From the NCBI GenBank assembly GCA_034521575.1, contig JAXHMJ010000001.1:389282-453281 (forward strand): DNA of 64,000 bases, given 5' to 3'. Shown in pieces: positions 6,428 to 16,784 of this stretch. A program made the position numbers and the translations under genes. The DNA comes from a candidate division KSB1 bacterium. GTDB taxonomy: Bacteria > Zhuqueibacterota > Zhuqueibacteria > Residuimicrobiales > Krinioviventaceae. How positions within the stretch are numbered: position 1 is the first letter of the stretch; each line of letters opens with the position of its first letter. Below the pieces are notes generated by a model. That model had not been told where the DNA came from, did no database searches, and saw only the letters and a program-made list of their open reading frames with translations.

Positions 6428-6958
6428 TCACCCGGATCCGCGCAGACCAACCCGGGAATAGAGCAGGTTGTAAAGCGCCAGCGCAAAGGCACCTCCGGCA
6501 ACAGCTGTGATAAACTGGGGAAAGGACATGGCTGCAATCAATGCGTCCGGTAGATGTTTGCCCAGCAGCAGCGGCAGCAGAAAACGCGCGGTGGCAAACA
6601 GCCACAGGGTTTTCAGCAGTGCGGCGGTCAGCAGCGCAATCCAGGTTCGCACTGAGGACAATAAATTCCGGTTGACGGACGGCCGAATGAGCGCAAACAC
6701 TCCCACCCAAATCGCATTACCGACAATAATAAAGGGAACCATCGGCGCCAGCAGTGGCGGCAGCTGACCGCGAAACAACGCAACCAGCGGTGTGAGCATT
6801 CCGAGAAGGATTCCACTCAGGGGGTCCAAAATCAACGCCGTAATGAGCAGCATCATATTGATCAGCGGACCGGTGATCAATTGCGGCAATCCGAACAACT
6901 GAATAATCAAAGTCAGCGTTAATAAAACGACAATTCGAGTCAGTTTGCGTAGGGGCAT
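6428..6958 (-). CDS. ECF-transporter S-component-like membrane protein
   Basis: The protein has 176 residues, almost all hydrophobic, with about five or six membrane spans. The pattern (LITGPLINMMLLITALILDPLSGILLGMLTP ... PFIIVGNAIWVGVF) is that of substrate-binding S components of energy-coupling-factor vitamin transporters and related small membrane proteins. The substrate is unknown, and no EcfA or EcfT gene lies in the window. The gene converges with the GWxTD gene (12 bases between stops) and is divergent from the protease gene. An AAGAGAAC ribosome-binding site precedes the ATG at 6958. Confidence 0.65.
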   Translation of the reverse strand: MPLRKLTRIVVLLTLTLIIQLFGLPQLITGPLINMMLLITALILDPLSGILLGMLTPLVALFRGQLPPLLAPMVPFIIVGNAIWVGVFALIRPSVNRNLLSSVRTWIALLTAALLKTLWLFATARFLLPLLLGKHLPDALIAAMSFPQFITAVAGGAFALALYNLLYSRVGLRGSG

Positions 6959-7105
6959 TATAGTTCTCTTGTTTTGTTCAGAACCCTAATGTTATGATTT
7001 CCAGCCTGAAAATCAATATTTTTATTAATTTCCTTGCATTTTTCGGCGGCGTTGAGTATCATTTAAACGACAAATAACAGGATTGAGCAACAGTCAGGGG
7101 TGCAA

Positions 7106-8118
7106 ATGGCCACATTTAAAGATATTTCAAAATTAAAACGCAAATCCAGAGCGCTTTACCGCAAACAAAATATCACAGGCATGGGAGTGGGGTTCAAGCA
7201 CACCGGCGGACAAAAAACCGACAAGCCCAGTCTGGTGATTTTGGTAAGCCGCAAGCAACGCGAGAGCGAGTTGTCGCGGCGCAACCGGATTCCAAAACGC
7301 ATCAACGGCATCGAAACGGATGTGATTCAGGCGGGTCAGGTGGTTGCACAGTCCGGCCGCCGGACGCGCCTGCGACCGGCTGAAGGCGGGATCAGTATCG
7401 GTCATCCGAATGTGGCATTCGGCACCCTGGGCGCCGTGGTGCGCGATGCCGCCACGGGTGAACGGCTGATTTTGTCCTGCAATCACGTGCTGGCCGATCA
7501 CAACAATGCGGAACCCGGAGACCTTATCCTGCAGCCGGGAGATGCCGACGGCGGAGAACCGGATGAGGATACTCTTGCGCATCTGGTGCGTTTTGTGCCG
7601 CTGTATTTTCAAACAGATGCCGCCAGTACGGGCAGCCCGTCTGAATGTAAAATTGCCAGATGCATGGCCGCCGTGCTGAACGCACCGGCCGTCCTGATTG
7701 GCTGCCAAACCCGGTTAAAAGCGGTTTATAACAAACCAATCAATTTCGTGGATGCGGCAGTGGCTCGGCCTTTGAGCGAGGATATGCTGAAAGACGAAAT
7801 CAGGGACATGGGTGCTGTGCGGGTACGGCGGAACTGACCGCCGGAGATGCGGTTAAAAAAAGCGGCTGCCGCACTGGATTAACACAATCGGAAATCGTTC
7901 TGATCGATACAGAAACCGAGGTCACGTATGGCCGTCATCGTGCATTTTTTGATGGTCAGCTGGCAACCTGGGCTCTATCAAAAGGCGGAGATTCCGGTTC
8001 GCTGCTGGTGGATGAACAGAACCGGGCGGCGGGACTGCTCATGGCCGGATCGGATACACTGAGTTTTTTCAATCCGATTGACCGGGTGATGGAAGCATTA
8101 GAGATTGAAATGATTTGA
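7106..8118 (+). pseudogene. Trypsin-like serine protease (Nal1-like), one-base frameshift
   Basis: The frame opens at ATG 7106 (AGGGG six bases upstream) and stops at 7837. The same protein continues in the next frame to TGA at 8118, giving about 337 residues in all. A full chymotrypsin-fold triad is visible across the join: His in SCNHVLAD, Asp in NFVDAAVA, and Ser in KGGDSGSLLVD. The frame break is at the GGG of 7821-7823; adding one G restores VRGTAELTAGDAVKKSG, including the KSGxxTGLT block typical of this protease family. There is no signal peptide, so the enzyme would be cytoplasmic. It is probably a functional gene with a homopolymer error rather than a decayed one. Confidence 0.75.
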
Positions 8119-8161: not shown

Positions 8162-9535
8162 TTAACTTTGCCGATGAAAAACAAACGGTAAATTCACAGT
8201 GACCGAACCGCTGGTGATCGGTTTGAAGCGCAGGCGTTTAATAATGCCGATCACTTCGGTGATAAAAGACTGATTGGAAATCGACGTTTCTGCAATCTGT
8301 ACCTGACTGACCCGTCCGGATGCCTCAATGGTCACATCCAGAGAGATTTTACCGCCGAGCGACGGCTCCTGCCGCAGGTATTTGTTGTACGCATACATAA
8401 TGCGGCCATGCTGGGCATTGATAACAGACATTACGTTTTGTGCCGAGCGGTCGGCTCTGGCCTGAGAAGAGCCGCGCATGCTCTGCGGAGACTGTATGTT
8501 GATCTCTCCTTTTTTCTCCAGCTCTACGCTTTCAATATCCGAATTGGATGACATGATATCGTCCACATCACCGGCAGCGCCCATGGCAAGCAGCTCATCA
8601 AGTGCATCCATATCACCGCCGCTTCCGGTCCCGTCTCCGCTACCGGAGCCGATGCGTTTGCCCGTTTGCAGCCGCTGGGTCTGCATGACTTTATCCAGAT
8701 TTTCAGCCACCCCTTTATCAATTAAAAAATCTACAGCCTGGCTGGACTGATGGGAAGCGCCGGAACCGCCGATGAGCCCCAGCAGTCCGGCGGATTCCAC
8801 CGTCTGATCGGATCCTGCGGATGACTCTGATTGTCTGCCGGAGCGCCGTTCTTCGGACTGTTCTCCGGAGGCAGCTTCCTGTTCCTCAGCTGCAGCGGAA
8901 CTCTGCTGTCCGGTTTGCGAGCTGGCAAGGGTTTCCGGTTCCGGCTGCTGTTCACGAATCATAAAGCGGGCAAAACGTTTTTGAGCCTGTTGGGATTGCG
9001 GCGGTTCTTCGGGCGGCAATTCCGTATGATTGATATGCCAGACCCACCAGCCTTCGAACGCCAGAAAGAGAATCAGCAACAGTTTAAAAATTCCATCGCT
9101 CAACAGAGCTTTGCGCGCCGCCGAGCGCCAGGAAAAATCATGATAGAAAAGCGTACGGGCCGGCGCAGATGCATATTGAAAATGAACCTGTTTATCTCCC
9201 ACCTGCAGCGTACCGGTATGTCCGGGTTCCACTTTGAGCTGATACATTCCCTTTTCTTTGGGCAGAATATCCTGGATAATCAGGCTTTGCAGCGAGATTT
9301 CGGACTCCCGGTAGCGCAAATGCCCGCCCATAGCCGGGTGCAATAGGATATGGCACTGATTTTTTTTCAGATGAATCAGAGACTGCGAGCGCGGATACCG
9401 ATGATCGTACACCAGCACATCATTGTTCGGTGTCCTGCCGACCGTCAACGCATCGTTCGGACGCAGGATGTGTTCAACCTCACCTCCCGAGTCCTGAATA
9501 ACAACTTTGATATGATTGTGTTTCGGTTTTGCCAT
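8162..9535 (-). CDS. FHA domain - membrane segment - TonB/AgmX-like protein
   Basis: The protein has 457 residues. Residues about 10-90 form a forkhead-associated domain (LTVGRTPNNDVLVYD, then the SQSLIHL segment). A single membrane helix lies at about 150-172 (GIFKLLLILFLAFEGWWVW). A long Gln/Ser/Glu/Gly-rich periplasmic linker follows. The last 90 residues match the AgmX/PglI-type TonB C-terminal fold (GRIMYAYNKYLRQEPSLGGK ... ASGRVSQVQI ... IKRLRFKP). FHA domains bind phosphothreonine peptides in the cytoplasm, so this looks like a TonB-type force transmitter with a cytoplasmic phospho-reader. It is the last gene of the ExbB/ExbD operon, which supplies the motor. The fusion is read directly; the control role is inferred. 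Confidence 0.85.
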   Translation of the reverse strand: MAKPKHNHIKVVIQDSGGEVEHILRPNDALTVGRTPNNDVLVYDHRYPRSQSLIHLKKNQCHILLHPAMGGHLRYRESEISLQSLIIQDILPKEKGMYQLKVEPGHTGTLQVGDKQVHFQYASAPARTLFYHDFSWRSAARKALLSDGIFKLLLILFLAFEGWWVWHINHTELPPEEPPQSQQAQKRFARFMIREQQPEPETLASSQTGQQSSAAAEEQEAASGEQSEERRSGRQSESSAGSDQTVESAGLLGLIGGSGASHQSSQAVDFLIDKGVAENLDKVMQTQRLQTGKRIGSGSGDGTGSGGDMDALDELLAMGAAGDVDDIMSSNSDIESVELEKKGEINIQSPQSMRGSSQARADRSAQNVMSVINAQHGRIMYAYNKYLRQEPSLGGKISLDVTIEASGRVSQVQIAETSISNQSFITEVIGIIKRLRFKPITSGSVTVNLPFVFHRQS

Positions 9536-9552
9536 TTATTTCAATCGGTTAA

Positions 9553-10065
9553 TCATTCTTTTTCCAGGACGGCAAGATGCATATTGTTGTATCCCACGCG
9601 TCCGCATGTCAGCATGATACGTTTCAGCAGATCAAATGTAATATTCCGGTCACCCTGTATCGCTATCGAGCCGCGGAATCCCTGCATGTTTGCAGACATT
9701 TTACCAATGCCTTCGGTCATTTCGCGCAGACGAAGCAGTTCGTCCTGCAGCGACGAAAGCACCAGCTCTTCACCGGATAATACGGCGTCGAGTCTTTGAA
9801 GCGGCCGTCCATCAACCAGAATCCACTCCTGGGTGATGGCGATGACCGACATGGTGGTGGGCGCCTGCTGAGATGTCGATTCCGGCAGGCGCAGGTCCGG
9901 CGTGATGGTCATGATCTGGCCTTCAGCGCTGTAACTTTTCAGTAAAAAGACCAACAGGATCGTAAACATATCGATCATGGACGTCAATCGCAACCCGAAC
10001 GTGCCTCGGCCCAGGCGTTTGGTGCCTGTGGCCAGTTTTAATGTGCTGTCTCTTTCAATATCCAT
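9553..10065 (-). CDS. ExbD/TolR-family biopolymer transport protein (second copy)
   Basis: The protein has 170 residues. It has a short cytoplasmic N-terminus, one membrane helix with the conserved Asp (LTSMIDMFTILLVFLLKSY) and a periplasmic domain. ExbD/TolR proteins form the proton-driven motor with ExbB/TolQ and pass energy to a TonB or TolA partner. Here the partner is most likely the FHA-TonB protein encoded 17 bases downstream. It lies 15 bases after the first exbD-like gene. Two different ExbD paralogues beside one ExbB is a layout also known from Myxococcus gliding clusters. Confidence 0.9.
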   Translation of the reverse strand: MDIERDSTLKLATGTKRLGRGTFGLRLTSMIDMFTILLVFLLKSYSAEGQIMTITPDLRLPESTSQQAPTTMSVIAITQEWILVDGRPLQRLDAVLSGEELVLSSLQDELLRLREMTEGIGKMSANMQGFRGSIAIQGDRNITFDLLKRIMLTCGRVGYNNMHLAVLEKE

Positions 10066-10080
10066 TTGCTTTCACCTGTC

Positions 10081-10551
10081 CTAACCGGAAATGGAAATAT
10101 TTGGAAATCCGGCTTGCCTACAATTATCCATAACAGTAATAATTATATGATATTCGATGTTGTCTTCCGGAGAGATGATAAAGTCATCAATATCCGGATA
10201 TTTTTCCTTAACCTGATCCAGCTGCATCCTGAGTTCAGACCACACATAGCTGCCATTTTTTTGGGGGATGGGATCAAACTTTAAATCCGGGCTTTTTATC
10301 TGCAGATGATCCGGATGGATCAATAAAATATTGAGCACAGCCGGTTGAGCCGGCCTGGATGTGGCCCGGGCCTCTCCGGAGCGATCCAGGTTCGGAAGAG
10401 ACAGTTCCAGCACGGCAATCCGGACGAACGTGGCTGTCAGCAGCAGAAACGGGATCAAAATGAGGAAAATGTTCATCACCGCCGTCAAATTCACATCCGC
10501 ATCGCGAACGTGTCCGCGCAGCTTACGGTTCAGGGTCTGTTTCAGATTCAT
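10081..10551 (-). CDS. ExbD/TolR-family biopolymer transport protein (first copy)
   Basis: The protein has 156 residues. The layout is N-terminal basic segment, one membrane helix (LTAVMNIFLILIPFLLLTATFV) and a periplasmic domain. At the position where ExbD/TolR proteins carry the proton-relay aspartate, the helix reads LTAVMNIFLI, with Asn in place of Asp. The second copy has Asp there (MIDMF). This copy may therefore be a structural rather than a proton-carrying subunit. Its ATG overlaps the stop of the ExbB-like gene (ATGA), so the two are translationally coupled. Confidence 0.85.
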   Translation of the reverse strand: MNLKQTLNRKLRGHVRDADVNLTAVMNIFLILIPFLLLTATFVRIAVLELSLPNLDRSGEARATSRPAQPAVLNILLIHPDHLQIKSPDLKFDPIPQKNGSYVWSELRMQLDQVKEKYPDIDDFIISPEDNIEYHIIITVMDNCRQAGFPNISISG

Positions 10552-11171
10552 GAATTCCTCGATGTCAGGAACGCGTACAATCTTGCAACTTTTTCGTTAA
10601 TCTCGTCAATTAATTCATTGGTTTTTTCCAGGATAAAGGTATATCCGATCAAACAGGGAATGGCGGTGATGATCCCGAACGCCGTGGTGTTCATGGCGAT
10701 CGAAATGCCTGCGGTCAGAAGCGCCGCTTTATCCGCTGCGTCCGCATGTGCAACCGCGGCAAAGGCGTTGATCAATCCCAGAATCGTTCCAAGTAGGCCC
10801 AAAAGTGTGGCGACATTGGCAATCATGGCCAGATAATGCGTGCGTTTTTCCAATTTGGGCATTTCCACCATGGCGGCGACTTCCAGAGCGTTTTGAATAT
10901 CTTTCGGGGATTTGTGGCTTGCCATCAGGCCTTCTTTGGCGATAGTGGGAAGGGCCGCAGAAGACTGATTGCAGTACTGGATAGCGCCTTTAACATCGCC
11001 GTTTTTCAACAACTCACCCACCCGGTTCATAAAGGTATCCGAATCAATTCGATTTTTGAACCGGATTACGATCAACCGTTCAATAATGATGACCAATCCC
11101 AGAAGCAGGGCGAACAGAATGATAAACATGACAGGACCGCCCTGGGAAAAAAATCTGATTATGCTTTGCAA
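10548..11171 (-). CDS. ExbB/TolQ/MotA-family proton channel protein
   Basis: The protein has 207 residues and three membrane helices: about 14-33 (VMFIILFALLLGLVIIIERL), about 115-140 (ANVATLLGLLGTILGLINAF) and about 155-180. The ATLLGLLGTILGLI block is the family hallmark. With the two ExbD-like proteins it should form a proton-powered inner-membrane motor that energises the FHA-TonB protein. Within the operon it follows the small exported protein and overlaps the first exbD-like gene by four bases. Confidence 0.92.
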   Translation of the reverse strand: MQSIIRFFSQGGPVMFIILFALLLGLVIIIERLIVIRFKNRIDSDTFMNRVGELLKNGDVKGAIQYCNQSSAALPTIAKEGLMASHKSPKDIQNALEVAAMVEMPKLEKRTHYLAMIANVATLLGLLGTILGLINAFAAVAHADAADKAALLTAGISIAMNTTAFGIITAIPCLIGYTFILEKTNELIDEINEKVARLYAFLTSRNS

Positions 11172-11196
11172 ATTAAACCTCCGCGTTTAAAAATCA

Positions 11197-11553
11197 TTAC
11201 CATTCTATCACATCCCGGCGGATCTGTGTACCCGGGGACATGTATTTGGTTTCCACCACCGACTGTTTATCAATCGGGCGAAAAATTTCATTAAAAAAAG
11301 ACCGTTCTATGTTGATATCATCAATTTCAGGCGTCTGGCCCGGCAGAAAAAAAACAGCCTGGGGTTTTTCCAGTTCTCCCTTGACCTCAATTTTATCAAT
11401 AAACAGGCGCGTGTCATCCCGGGTTACATCCGGATGTGTGGCCAGTGAATCACTTGCCGACAGCGAGTCCGGCCGGGCGCTGTCTGTCAACGTTTGCGCC
11501 GAAAGCGCGTTTATCATGATAAACAGAAAAACAATCATTGTTCTGGTGTACAT
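11197..11553 (-). CDS. Small exported protein of unknown function
   Basis: About 118 residues from ATG 11553, which has a GAGGCAGG ribosome-binding site and starts 7 bases after the stop of the long TPR gene. An upstream in-frame start at 11601 would lie inside that gene and is less likely. The N-terminus is a signal peptide (MIVFLFIMINALSAQ). The rest is acidic and Ser/Asp-rich, and contains FIDKIEVKGELEKPQAVFFLPG. I do not recognise a family. Its constant place between the TPR proteins and the ExbB motor suggests a periplasmic accessory of that machine. 'KPQAVFFLPG' looks like a short conserved segment worth searching. Confidence 0.7.
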   Translation of the reverse strand: MYTRTMIVFLFIMINALSAQTLTDSARPDSLSASDSLATHPDVTRDDTRLFIDKIEVKGELEKPQAVFFLPGQTPEIDDINIERSFFNEIFRPIDKQSVVETKYMSPGTQIRRDVIEW

Positions 11554-11560
11554 ACCTGCC

Positions 11561-14404
11561 TCAGGGATCATTGCTGGATATAGATTGTGAATTAATTTCA
11601 AGCGTCAATTCTTTTATTCGGCTGCGGCTGCGTTTGACCCAGATATTGTTGATCTGGTTGGCTTCAGCTTGACTCACATTCTTTTGGAACGCCTGCAGAG
11701 CTTTTTCCTTGTACGGAAACGCCGACTGCCGGAGCCTCGACCGGTAGAGTTTCTGCTGTTCCTCATCCAAATGCATGGGAGACGGTGATTCTTCGAACGC
11801 CCGCACCAGTTCTTCAAACGCCATACCCACCCGATGCAGTGAAGCGGTGGTCCATTCCGCCACCTGGTATTGTACCGCTCCGGTGTAGGCCTCTAATACA
11901 TGCTGAAAACTGGCGGTTTTGCGTTCAAGATTTGTCTTTAACGGGGGCTCTATATTGAGCTTTTTATAATCTTCAAACAACATCTCTCCAAGCATAAATT
12001 GAGATGCGGCCACATAGTAAATATCAGCATTCCGGCCGTTTTGATAAGCCGCGATGACCCGTTGAAACAATTGGCGCGCCCGGGGATATTGAAACCGCTG
12101 GTACGCCATTTGTCCGCTTTTGTATAAAAACTCTACACTCTCCACCCGGTCAGGAAAGGTTTCCGCATAGCGTTGATACACCGTTTGAGCGGCAGCCAGA
12201 TTTCCGGAATTTTCGTAATGCAGACCGGCTTTTTTCAAAGATTCCGCATTAAACGGGGAATCGGGGTAGCGGTCCACAAGCCGGATCAAATCGGATGCGG
12301 ACAATATCCAGTCCTTTTGTTCTTCATGCAGAACAGCGGCCTGATACAGCGCTTTGTCCGCCATGGATGAGGAGGAATGCTCGCGCTGCAGGCGTTCGTA
12401 CAGTCTGGCGGCCATGCTCTTTCGATTGGCATTCTGATACTGTACGGCGGCATTGTAAAGCGCACGTTCCTGAAACACACTGTCATTCGAGGTTTCTGCA
12501 ATGGACAAAAGCAGATCACCGGCCTGCACATAATGTCCCTGCCGGCTGAGCTGATCGGCTTTTTTAAATTTTGCCGAGGCCGCCATCTGAGAGGCCTGCC
12601 TGGCACGGTCCGTGGAATCGGATACCGATACTTTATCAAACATTTTTTCGGCCTTGTTGTACTCTTTGGCCTTGAAATAAGCGTGTCCGGCGTTCATATA
12701 TGCGGTCACCAGATACGGTGAACTGCCCTCCTGTATGATTTGATTGTAGACCTGCACTGCTTTTAAATGCTGGTCGAGCGACGCCAGAGTTTCCCCGAAT
12801 TTCATATACACCTGATCCACCCAGTCACTGGCCGGATACAGGAGAATAAATTCATTGCAGGCCTGAAGCAGCTGAGCATCGGACTCATACGACACCCGTA
12901 TGGACAGGGTGTCCGGTGTGGCGAGAAAATTGACGATTCGTGTGATGAACGGCGGCTGTTCTTCATCCTGATGCAGGGCGTCTACACGCGCCAGAATGCG
13001 GTTGAACGCAGCTTCTTCGCGAAAGCGCGAATCCGGGTAAAGGTCAACCACCGTCTTGTAAATTTCCGCAGCTTTTTCAGAATCATCAAGCTGATAATGA
13101 CAGTCTGCAAGATAATAATGCAGGGTATCAGTATTGGCCTGGTCCGGAAAGGCATCGATATATTCGGTGTACAGATCAATCGCTGAATGATAATTCTGTT
13201 TTTCACCGGTTCGGGAGGCCAAAGACTGGTAGTAGGTGCCGAGATACACCAGGTGTTTTCGGGCCACCGCCATTCCGTGCTCATACAGCGAATCCGACGC
13301 ATAATGGCTCGACCATTCACCGCCCGGGCCGAAAAGATCAATCGCAGAACGGCGGACTCGGTTGGCCTGTTGGATATCCCCGGCGTTTTCATAATTCTGA
13401 ATGATAGCGGCGTAAATTTGCGAAAGCTCGGGATCATAAGGATAAAAATCACAAATAATCTCATAGGTTTGCACCGCTCGCAGATAGAATGTCCGCTGTT
13501 CATACAAACCGGCCATGGTTTGTAGAATAGGCTGTGTAAAAGGCCGGTTTTTTAAAGATTTTAAAAAGTTTCCGGCTGTGGAGGGCTCGGCGTACTCGGT
13601 GAACGCGCTGGCGATATAATAGATGGCTTCCGAACGAAGATCTGTCTTGGGTACGTTTAATTCCTGAGATTCCACCCGCTCCAGCATCTCCAGATCCTGA
13701 ATGAGCGTCAAAAATGAACTGATGGCATCCGGATAACGCTCCAGGTTATAATACGACCACCCCAATTTATACAAGGCCATGTCAAAATACGGATTATCCC
13801 ATTGCTGCAGCAGGTTTTTATAATGCACAATGGCATTTTTAAAATCACGTTTATTGAAATAATACTCGCCGATCCGGAACCGGGCTTCAAGCGCCAAATC
13901 GGATCCTTTAAACTGTTGCACCAGCTGTGAAAACGTCTCCTGCGCCTTTTGCGGGTTGCCGCCCTGAAGAAAGGTAATGCCGAGTGTATACATAACACGG
14001 TCGGCGAACGCAATGTCCGGAAACGAGTCCAACAGAGTCTGACAATAGTAGACTGTTTTTTCAATGCGTCTGACGGGCATATCTGGTTCAGTGTTTCGCT
14101 CACCACGGTCGTATTGCTCAAGTTTGCGTTCATAATTTTGCATTTCCTGCTCGTACAGCCACCTGGAGCGTTCTGAATACAGTTCAGCCAGTTGATACAT
14201 CACGGTCGGGACGAACGCCCCGTCCGGATATTTTTCAATTAACGTTTCGTGTTCGTTAATGATCTGCTCCAGATGACTCGGATCACCTCCCGCCTCCTCA
14301 ATCATGGCATTGACCACCCCGCTCTCCTGAGCATACAGAAAACCGCCGGAGAACAGACAGCATACTAAAAGGGTGAAACGATGTCGGGTCACGAATTTGA
14401 TCAT
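11561..14404 (-). CDS. Long periplasmic TPR protein of the ExbBD/FHA-TonB operon
   Basis: The protein has 947 residues: a signal peptide (FTLLVCCLFSGGFLYAQ) followed by at least twelve TPR units of the BamD/YbgF type along nearly the whole length (for example ALYKLGWSYYNLERYPDAIS, AYMNAGHAYFKAKEYNKAEK, LYKSGQMAYQRFQYPRARQL). Such proteins act as periplasmic scaffolds. In Myxococcus gliding clusters, long TPR proteins lie beside AgmX, TolQ and TolR homologues, which is the arrangement here. It starts 2 bases after the stop of the preceding TPR gene. Confidence 0.85.
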   Translation of the reverse strand: MIKFVTRHRFTLLVCCLFSGGFLYAQESGVVNAMIEEAGGDPSHLEQIINEHETLIEKYPDGAFVPTVMYQLAELYSERSRWLYEQEMQNYERKLEQYDRGERNTEPDMPVRRIEKTVYYCQTLLDSFPDIAFADRVMYTLGITFLQGGNPQKAQETFSQLVQQFKGSDLALEARFRIGEYYFNKRDFKNAIVHYKNLLQQWDNPYFDMALYKLGWSYYNLERYPDAISSFLTLIQDLEMLERVESQELNVPKTDLRSEAIYYIASAFTEYAEPSTAGNFLKSLKNRPFTQPILQTMAGLYEQRTFYLRAVQTYEIICDFYPYDPELSQIYAAIIQNYENAGDIQQANRVRRSAIDLFGPGGEWSSHYASDSLYEHGMAVARKHLVYLGTYYQSLASRTGEKQNYHSAIDLYTEYIDAFPDQANTDTLHYYLADCHYQLDDSEKAAEIYKTVVDLYPDSRFREEAAFNRILARVDALHQDEEQPPFITRIVNFLATPDTLSIRVSYESDAQLLQACNEFILLYPASDWVDQVYMKFGETLASLDQHLKAVQVYNQIIQEGSSPYLVTAYMNAGHAYFKAKEYNKAEKMFDKVSVSDSTDRARQASQMAASAKFKKADQLSRQGHYVQAGDLLLSIAETSNDSVFQERALYNAAVQYQNANRKSMAARLYERLQREHSSSSMADKALYQAAVLHEEQKDWILSASDLIRLVDRYPDSPFNAESLKKAGLHYENSGNLAAAQTVYQRYAETFPDRVESVEFLYKSGQMAYQRFQYPRARQLFQRVIAAYQNGRNADIYYVAASQFMLGEMLFEDYKKLNIEPPLKTNLERKTASFQHVLEAYTGAVQYQVAEWTTASLHRVGMAFEELVRAFEESPSPMHLDEEQQKLYRSRLRQSAFPYKEKALQAFQKNVSQAEANQINNIWVKRSRSRIKELTLEINSQSISSNDP

Positions 14405-14406
14405 AA

Positions 14407-15750
14407 TTATTGTTGGTGCCGTAATGTTTGACGTTTCAGAAATTTGGCCCGGGTGATACCATACTCTGCATAGGCAATCCAGTTATGTTCACTCTTAACC
14501 GGTCGGCTTTGCTGTTTTAGCTGATCGATTTCCTGCTCCAGGCGGTTCATTTCCTTGCGCTCACGTTCAATATCGCGAAACAACTGAAAATGGGTGCTGG
14601 TCATGTTGCCTTTCCGCTGTTCAAACGGACTGTAAGAATTTTCGGACTGATTATAAATTGATTTGACCAGCTTGGATTCCAGGGACAGCAGCTCCATTTT
14701 GCGTTTCTGGATCCGCTGTTTCTCAAACAGCAGCTCCTTCTGCAGGGAATCCCGGTGCGCGGATGACTGCAAGTCCTGATGATGTTCAATGAGATATTCA
14801 TAGATTTCAACGGCATTGTCATATTTCCCCAGTTTCAAATAACAGCGTCCCAGCAGAAAAAGGCACTCGCTGGTCTGAGGGCTGTTTTCATAATTATTGT
14901 ACAGGAGCGTCAACAGGGAAGCGGCTTTGTTCCAGTTTTTTTGATTGGCCTCTGTCCATCCTGCCGCGAGCAGGGCATCAGGGTGCTTGCTGCTACTGGG
15001 ACTGACCGTCCGAAAATGAGACAGAGCATCCTTAAAGTACCCCATTTCATAATAGACATAACCCAGGGTAAGATGGGTCTCATCCAGAATAGACTGGCGT
15101 TCGTCATCAGTGGGTGGCATTTCCGAGAGGACGCGCAATATTTCGAGTGCTTGCTCGATATTTTTCATTTGCAGCAAAGAGACGCCCCGGGTATAAAGCG
15201 TATGTTCATAATAGGGGCTCGTTGAATTCGCCAGCTCCAGCGTTTCATTGCAGGCGGGATAATCTCCCAGATGATAATAGGCCAGACCGGCATAATAACC
15301 AGCGTAATTGAGTATGCGTTGAGCCGGATTGGATCGACGCAGAATTTTAAAATATTCGATACAGGAACGATAATTGCCCCGGTCATAGTGAATTCGTTCG
15401 ATACCGAGAATGGCTTCCGGCAAATACTCACTTTTTACATGTTTTCGCAGCATAAACTTGTAAATCCGTTCTGCGCCTTCATGCAGATTCACTTCATACA
15501 GACAATTGCCCAGCATCAACAGAGCATGATCCATCTGTGAATAACCCGGATTAAAATCGAGTAGAATGGAAAGTTCACGTGCGCAATCCCAGAATTTCAT
15601 TTCTTTATAAAGCTGCAGGGCCTGAAAAAACATCTTGTTCGATACTTTTTCCACCTGAGCCTGTTGTGTTTCCTGAGCCTGCAATTCAACCACGCCGGTC
15701 AGGAAAACCAGGCAATACACTGCAACCCTAATGTTTATTCTCTTTTTCAT
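14407..15750 (-). CDS. Periplasmic TPR protein with C-terminal coiled coil
   Basis: The protein has 447 residues: signal peptide (VAVYCLVFLTGVVELQAQ), TPR repeats over about 30-320 (LYKEMKFWDCARELSILLDF, AGLAYYHLGDYPACNETLEL, CLFLLGRCYLKLGKYDNAVE), then a charged helical tail (FRDIERERKEMNRLEQEIDQ) likely to form a coiled coil. It is the second gene of the operon and is packed tightly against the longer TPR gene. A scaffold role between outer and inner membrane parts of the machine is inferred. Confidence 0.85.
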   Translation of the reverse strand: MKKRINIRVAVYCLVFLTGVVELQAQETQQAQVEKVSNKMFFQALQLYKEMKFWDCARELSILLDFNPGYSQMDHALLMLGNCLYEVNLHEGAERIYKFMLRKHVKSEYLPEAILGIERIHYDRGNYRSCIEYFKILRRSNPAQRILNYAGYYAGLAYYHLGDYPACNETLELANSTSPYYEHTLYTRGVSLLQMKNIEQALEILRVLSEMPPTDDERQSILDETHLTLGYVYYEMGYFKDALSHFRTVSPSSSKHPDALLAAGWTEANQKNWNKAASLLTLLYNNYENSPQTSECLFLLGRCYLKLGKYDNAVEIYEYLIEHHQDLQSSAHRDSLQKELLFEKQRIQKRKMELLSLESKLVKSIYNQSENSYSPFEQRKGNMTSTHFQLFRDIERERKEMNRLEQEIDQLKQQSRPVKSEHNWIAYAEYGITRAKFLKRQTLRHQQ

Positions 15751-15773
15751 GCCCTAAAATGACACCCTCTGCA

Positions 15774-16784
15774 TTAAAACGGGAGATCTTTTTCCTTTTC
15801 TTTTTCCAGTTTTTTGCGATATTCTTCAAGTTCTTTGTTGATGTCCTGCCGCTGCCGCCGAATTTCGTTGATATTTTGTTCTTTGAGCTGTTCGCGTTCC
15901 AGTTCCTGGATGTTTTTTTTATAAAATAAATGAAAAGAATAGGTCATTCCAAACATAATTCGCCAGTCTGCATAATCTTCGTAAAACCGATGTGACTGAT
16001 TGCCGGCTTTCCGTTTAGACTGCGAAAGATCAATATCCCCGGCCACATCAAAGAGAATCTGGTAAGGTCCATAAAATTTTACACCCTGGGTATATCGAAC
16101 CGAGTTATAAGATGCGGGCAGGTCTGTTTTATTGAAAAAATATTCGCCGCTCAGTTCACTGTAAATCAATACTTTTTTCACAGCGTATTTGACAGCCAGT
16201 CCGCCTATCAATTGATCCGTGATGCCGGCAAACACATCATTGCTTATATTATGATCCTTATAGCCCAAATTCAAACTCAATTTAAGCGGTATATTCAAAT
16301 TGGATTCTTTAAAATTAAAGGAAGCCGCTGTAAGCATCGCCCATCCCAGTCCGTCTTCGCTATACGGTTCAAAGGGAATCGGGTGGATTGCGGCTGTTGG
16401 AGCCTCCAGATACCCTGCGGCAGCCAGAGAAAATAAAGGGGTTGGCTGCGCCAGGGTATGCTTTAAACCGATTTTTGTATCTCCGGGAGGTGCAAAAATA
16501 TGCCTCTGATCATCATGATACGGGATCACATGAAGAAAAACTTCGGTTGCATAAGGCAGACCGAGAGAAAAACCCAGGTGCCAGGTATACAATTCGCTGA
16601 GAGATGACTCTGTATTCAGCTGCGTAGCATAGCCCTGAAAAACCGAACTTGTGTAAAACCGGCCATACTCGATGGCATCCGCTTCGTAAATCCGCATCAA
16701 TCCTTTGCCGCCGCCGATGGAAACCTGGGCGGCAAGCAGAGACGGTGATAATAATATTAATAATAATAATAATTTGTTTGCCAT
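15774..16784 (-). CDS. Outer-membrane beta-barrel-like protein, first gene of the ExbBD operon
   Basis: The protein has 336 residues: a clear signal peptide (LLLLLILLSPSLLAAQ), then alternating amphipathic strands with aromatic girdle residues (for example LYTWHLGFSLGLPYATEVFL, IPLKLSLNLGYKDH, GVKFYGPYQILFDVAGDIDL) that suggest an outer-membrane barrel. It ends in a charged helical tail (about 285-336, rich in Glu, Lys and Arg), which is unusual for a barrel and may reach into the periplasm to contact the TPR proteins. I do not recognise a named family. It is the promoter-proximal gene of the operon. Confidence 0.65.
   Translation of the reverse strand: MANKLLLLLILLSPSLLAAQVSIGGGKGLMRIYEADAIEYGRFYTSSVFQGYATQLNTESSLSELYTWHLGFSLGLPYATEVFLHVIPYHDDQRHIFAPPGDTKIGLKHTLAQPTPLFSLAAAGYLEAPTAAIHPIPFEPYSEDGLGWAMLTAASFNFKESNLNIPLKLSLNLGYKDHNISNDVFAGITDQLIGGLAVKYAVKKVLIYSELSGEYFFNKTDLPASYNSVRYTQGVKFYGPYQILFDVAGDIDLSQSKRKAGNQSHRFYEDYADWRIMFGMTYSFHLFYKKNIQELEREQLKEQNINEIRRQRQDINKELEEYRKKLEKEKEKDLPF

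Follow-up and report, generated by a model that had tools for sequence, protein, structure and literature searches.

Does a run of eight genes that encodes an ExbB-type motor and a TonB-like protein with an FHA domain specify a machine that transmits force across the cell envelope, what would such a machine do, and is it switched by Ser/Thr phosphorylation? These questions were raised by positions 8162-16784 of the window (the whole 64,000-nucleotide stretch of a KSB1 bacterium that was analysed). An earlier note, made from the sequence alone, had described an eight-gene trans-envelope motor operon there, and had proposed that its TonB subunit carries a cytoplasmic FHA domain through which the machine is gated.

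Organization of the operon

The eight-gene reading was confirmed for all ORFs, their strand and their coordinates, and Pfam, NCBIfam and fold comparisons support it. All are on the minus strand and run from 16784 to 8162, and neighbouring genes either overlap slightly or are 2-25 bp apart (Table 1). A 12-strand outer-membrane barrel comes first, followed by two TPR proteins and a small exported protein; next are ExbB and two ExbD proteins, and last is a protein with an FHA-TM-linker-TonB arrangement. Pfam scans of the window proteins found MotA_ExbB once, ExbD twice and TPRs. A plasmid search gave no match. Matches to consensus promoters and terminators were left out of account.

Table 1. Positions in the window of the operon genes and of the transducer domains.
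Feature	Position	Strand	Evidence
Outer-membrane beta-barrel, signal peptide, 12 strands, C-terminal 40-residue periplasmic helix	15774..16784	-	AF2, Foldseek; conserved gene 1 of operon
Exported TPR protein, 447 aa, YbgF/BamD-type TPRs, GltE-like position	14407..15750	-	Pfam, NCBIfam
Long exported TPR protein, 947 aa, GltD-like position	11561..14404	-	Pfam, NCBIfam
Small exported protein with conserved motif	11197..11601	-	Alignment
ExbB/TolQ/AglR-type proton channel subunit	10548..11171	-	PF01618, 1.8e-28
ExbD1; Asn27 (codon 10471-10473) at the TM proton-binding Asp site	10081..10551	-	PF02472, 2.8e-17
ExbD2; TM Asp32 kept (codon 9970-9972)	9553..10065	-	PF02472, 9.6e-13
GltG-like transducer, 457 aa: FHA-fold domain, TM, disordered linker, TonB C-terminal domain	8162..9535	-	NF033760, 8e-25; NF033768; model; fold search
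Degenerate FHA-fold cytoplasmic domain, residues ~5-125 of transducer	9161..9523	-	Model, fold search, alignments
Transducer TM helix, residues 148-170	9026..9094	-	AF2 model
TonB-like C-terminal domain, residues 343-457 of transducer	8165..8509	-	NCBIfam, model, fold search, profiles

All structures were predicted as AF2 monomers only. The barrel model has a pLDDT of 85.5, 12 strands and a C-terminal helix at residues 292-332. Its Foldseek matches include KdgM (TMt 0.86, rmsd 3.0) and FapF, which gave the best E (5.8e-8). Pfam and NCBIfam scans assigned the small exported protein to no family, and an alignment of its homologues shows the motif DKIEV-G-LEKPQAVFI-PG--PEIDDI-IERSFF-EIFRPVEK. The true start of this ORF is probably an ATG at 11571, 11553 or 11538.

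Two other ORFs of the window lie near the operon. The protein encoded at 7100-7837 on the plus strand matches the NARROW LEAF 1 N-terminal domain (PF25608, 3.6e-7) and has homologues downstream of the operon in seven relatives. A small multi-TM protein is encoded at 6428-6958 on the minus strand; its homologues are downstream of the operon in five relatives.

Conservation across the phylum

Relatives from within the family, the order and the class, and members of a second class of the phylum, have the same eight genes in the same order, a recurrence that rules out chance. Loci cut by contig ends miss the end genes. All operon comparisons were made within KSB1-type genomes, and there the conserved gene order bears out the proposal of a dedicated proton-driven machine related to AglRQS-Glt. 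The long TPR gene has a match in 80 of 82 phylum genomes, including all 49 of good quality, with the limit that in part of the second class this match is only a ~1500-aa paralogue belonging to the second machine described below. A closer-set profile search of contigs for the transducer returned 15 loci. Most were labelled KSB1 or Calditrichota, and the rest carried generic bin names and one Actinomycetota bin name. The gene for the 447-aa TPR protein is split into two ORFs of ~200-300 aa each in several genomes (L048, L049, L054 and L124-L129).

The operon has variable flanks, in which some genes recur: those for TsaD, a YbbR-like protein, a VWA-like membrane protein and a pair of histidine kinase and response regulator. 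These names were read from the sequences, with profile scans covering only some of the genes. At 14 loci (within L031-L052) a ~725-aa VWA-like membrane protein is encoded directly upstream of the barrel on the same strand; it is absent from this position in the window. The near-universality of the operon in the phylum suggests that its envelope task is one of housekeeping and not tied to a specialised lifestyle.

The transducer and its FHA-fold domain

The tail of the transducer matches the AgmX/PglI C-terminal domain model (NCBIfam NF033768) above the cut-off (74.9 vs 40 bits), and its match to Pfam TonB_C is slightly under the cut-off (7.1e-5). The GltG model (NF033760) matches residues 27-455 at 8e-25; the score of 87 bits is well short of the 650 bits set for an equivalog. 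On these profile matches the window transducer is classed as a homologue of GltG, not as a certified equivalog. Every one of 28 transducer homologues is matched by the GltG model (best E 1.6e-34) and has the AgmX/PglI tail. The TonB-like C-terminus and the gene order were the two points on which the earlier note had staked its reading beforehand; the former is kept in 28 of 28 homologues, and the latter is conserved as described above.

The AF2 model of the transducer has a confident N-terminal beta domain (residues 8-122, pLDDT ~92) and a TM helix at 148-170. A long linker, modelled with low confidence, leads to a confidently modelled C-terminal domain, which falls among TonB CTDs in the PDB comparison (Z ~8), and sequence profiles agree (TonB E 1.3e-8). 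Pfam FHA has no match in the window transducer nor anywhere in its genome, and since assignment by Pfam failed, a fold search was required. In the PDB the predicted N-terminal domain is matched best by FHA domains (Foldseek probability 1.00, E ~3e-3), among which it also falls by VIA (Z 9.1 over 95 residues, rmsd 3.1). An FHA fold is thus confirmed for the domain as modelled.

Alignment of this family with the FHA domains of EmbR and ArnA shows that G-R/K-x-x-x-N-D is kept, that P-K-x-H replaces S-R-x-H and that x-G-E replaces N-G-T. Among 26 homologues, the Arg of GR is present in 12, and neither the Ser of SRxH nor the Asn of NG is present in any. The Ser position is Pro in 25 of them and Gly in one. 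From these residue patterns, the FHA-fold domain looks unable to read phosphorylation.

Some of the homologous domains match the cytoplasmic FHA-like family of T3SS YscD as well as, or better than, FHA. All of ten N-terminal domains align to positions ~204-324 of the GltG model, several with weak individual scores, and the annotated FHA domain of M. xanthus GltG is at 26-90 (PMC3169522). The piece held in common with GltG is, judged by these alignments, most likely a membrane-proximal FHA-like domain and not the annotated FHA domain; it is this membrane-proximal domain that is suggested as the shared ancient part.

Hanks kinases are present in 36 of 40 relatives, and the window's own genome has one, sited on another contig. 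PP2C_2 was not detected in that genome. A kinase or PP2C phosphatase gene, for which the earlier note suggested looking in other genomes, was not seen near the operon, among the matches listed. In two genomes, G022 (97% complete) and G028 (100%), the operon is present with its FHA-fold domain, and no Hanks kinase was detectable.

Two unlike ExbD subunits

An alignment of the two ExbD proteins with ExbD and TolR of E. coli K-12 places the TM Asp opposite Asp in ExbD2 and opposite Asn in ExbD1. This pairing holds in 37 of 37 operons, that is, in all 27 operons of the class (window included) and in 10 further operons, and the paralogous second machine has the same split. In Myxococcus, the D28N substitution in AglQ abolishes motor function (PMC3858216), and AglQ and AglS are both stated to carry the TM Asp (PMC9389320). 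The invariant Asn of ExbD1 means that the motor is not identical to AglRQS, and still allows it to be called a variant. Whether the two MotB-like subunits of the Myxococcus machine, AglQ and AglS, pair as hetero- or homodimers has been left undecided by reviews (PMC9389320, PMC9120999). We infer from the residue pattern that the axle is a heterodimer of ExbD1 and ExbD2 and has a single proton site. An invariant split in a nearly phylum-wide operon points to such a one-Asp axle, which is directly testable.

Joint loss of the motor and the FHA-fold domain

Five genomes of family f2 (G010, G014, G016, G018 and G020) have the barrel, both TPR proteins, the small protein and the transducer in an operon without ExbB or ExbD. 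The transducers of these motorless operons (L051, L052 and L121-L123) have a different, helical-looking N-terminus in place of the FHA domain. Another member of that family, G021, has retained the motor as well as the domain. The domain is thus found in every motor-bearing operon examined and in none of the five motorless ones, and their loss together links it to the motor. Seen in a single family, the co-loss probably goes back to one evolutionary event. No relative of ExbD2 was found elsewhere in three of the five motorless genomes, and in the other two the sole relative belongs to the second machine.

A second machine and other motors

A second machine was recognised at five loci (L108-L111 and L113). 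It comprises a TPR protein of ~800-1000 aa, a TPR protein of ~1530 aa, ExbB (where the ORF was called), an ExbD with Asn, an ExbD with Asp, and an AgmX-like TonB protein without FHA; L108 also has a small exported ORF. It is present in most phylum genomes, and an apparent aspartyl-tRNA synthetase gene comes next. As a motor without FHA, it indicates that the domain is not generally needed for such motors. The window's genome has one copy of the first machine, and the second was not found there. This genome has five MotA/ExbB loci, and at least two of the four others adjoin other ExbD/TonB-like genes. Among the five is another cluster of TPR, ExbB, ExbD and TonB-like genes (L118, C5:1199000-1209000).

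Proposed function

A role as a trans-envelope force transducer is well supported for the operon. Gene content, synteny, predicted folds, residue patterns and the co-loss of motor and FHA domain make it likely that this is a housekeeping transducer of the Glt/Nfs-core type, whose axle is a heterodimer with one Asp and whose cytoplasmic domain docks independently of phosphorylation. ExbB would form the ring, and ExbD1 and ExbD2, presumably one of each, the axle. With the proton-binding Asp on ExbD2 only, ExbD1 may be specialised, for example in binding peptidoglycan or the transducer. The GltG-like protein would couple to the motor through its TM helix, and its degenerate FHA-fold domain may serve, if the FHA-like domains of T3SS YscD-type proteins are a guide, as a phosphorylation-independent dock for the motor or a scaffold. 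The flexible linker of ~170 residues would take the TonB domain through the peptidoglycan to a complex of barrel, TPR and small proteins at the outer membrane, which the transducer would pull or move, the direction of force being conjectural. In a narrower form, whose chances are put slightly below even, the axle is an obligate heterodimer in which a single proton-binding ExbD gives asymmetric, perhaps stepwise or hand-over-hand, force, and the FHA-fold domain is a non-phospho latch that was lost with the motor.

The homology of the core and the Myxococcus precedent (PMC3858216) would also fit a machine that drives gliding or surface-polymer transport, as do Agl-Glt and Agl-Nfs. This is unlikely, if far from negligible: an NCBIfam scan of the eight operon proteins recognised no Group A gliding genes, the core alone was argued by Luciano et al. 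to be insufficient for motility (PMC3169522), and the operon is nearly universal across diverse MAGs.

That same near-universality, together with TolQ-like and YbgF/BamD-like matches, is consistent with a substitute for Tol-Pal, in which the motor would pull the barrel/TPR complex and so constrict or stabilise the outer membrane at division. The TolB N-domain was undetected in the window's genome and in 30 of 49 good-quality phylum genomes, and Agl-Glt itself can produce constrictions (PMC5349195). However, TolB matches elsewhere in the phylum are weak, so that its absence is uncertain, and no Pal or TolB partners are in the operon. The AgmX-type tail belongs to the gliding family and not to TolA, and the genome has its other MotA/ExbB motors, some beside ExbD/TonB-like genes of their own. 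One chance in a few is as much as we would give this reading.

The motorless operons bear on a further alternative, in which the proteins of the periplasm and outer membrane serve mainly as a structural tether, with the motor as an auxiliary. Five genomes have kept the barrel, TPR proteins, small protein and TonB-like protein in this way, but all other operons examined retain the motor, and operons that lack it may rely on another ExbBD, much as Nfs relies on AglRQS (PMC3858216), which leaves the tether improbable. Gating by Ser/Thr phosphorylation, in which the FHA domain would read phosphothreonine and switch the transducer, is very improbable and was rejected: the predicted fold and the widespread Hanks kinases are in its favour, but the phosphothreonine residues are absent, the domain most likely does not correspond to the FHA annotated in Myxococcus GltG, no kinase or PP2C gene was seen near the operon, among the matches listed, and operon genomes without detected Hanks kinases exist. 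The housekeeping force transducer remains the preferred reading, with the caution that an FHA domain here should not be taken as phosphorylation control.

Comparison with known systems

Inner-membrane proteins of T3SS of the YscD/PrgH type resemble the KSB1 transducer in layout: an FHA-like domain in the cytoplasm, then a TM helix, then a periplasmic part. That last part consists of ring-building modules in YscD/PrgH and of a TonB linker and CTD in the transducer, and sequence similarity is weak. Tol-Pal and TonB-ExbBD share with the KSB1 machine a 5:2-type motor and a TonB/TolA-like transducer that acts on the outer membrane. The KSB1 operon differs from both in its two distinct ExbD genes, one without Asp, and in the cytoplasmic FHA-fold domain, and from Tol-Pal in having no TolB or Pal.

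The Nfs/Exo spore-coat machine of Myxococcus likewise combines a GltG-like transducer with TPR proteins. It is powered by the AglRQS motor (Wartel et al. 2013; PMC3858216), which is thus borrowed, whereas the KSB1 motor is encoded inside the operon except in the five motorless genomes.

The closest likeness is to the Agl-Glt core, defined by Luciano et al. (2011) as AglRQS with GltC, GltD, GltE and GltG (PMC3169522). Both systems have one ExbB/AglR gene and two tandem ExbD/TolR genes, TPR proteins, and a GltG-type protein with a cytosolic FHA-type domain, one TM helix, a linker and an AgmX/TonB C-terminus. GltG was already described in 2011 as having cytosolic FHA and TonB parts, and AglR binds GltG/NfsG in M. 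xanthus (PMC3169522). The core genes form a single operon in gammaproteobacteria, Geobacter and Fibrobacter, as they do in KSB1. Unlike the Agl-Glt core, the KSB1 operon contains the 12-strand barrel and the conserved small exported protein, has only two TPR genes, lacks the annotated N-terminal FHA (26-90) of GltG, and has an ExbD1 without the proton-binding Asp. No Glt-specific NCBIfam TPR model, for GltC, GltD or GltE, matched its two TPR proteins. The role of the core complex outside gliding was unknown as of Luciano et al. 2011 (PMC3169522), and a nearly phylum-wide operon matters for a complex that has no known function outside gliding and sporulation. The concept is not new: the KSB1 operon is a variant of the proton-driven core machine already known from gliding and spore-coat assembly in Myxococcus.
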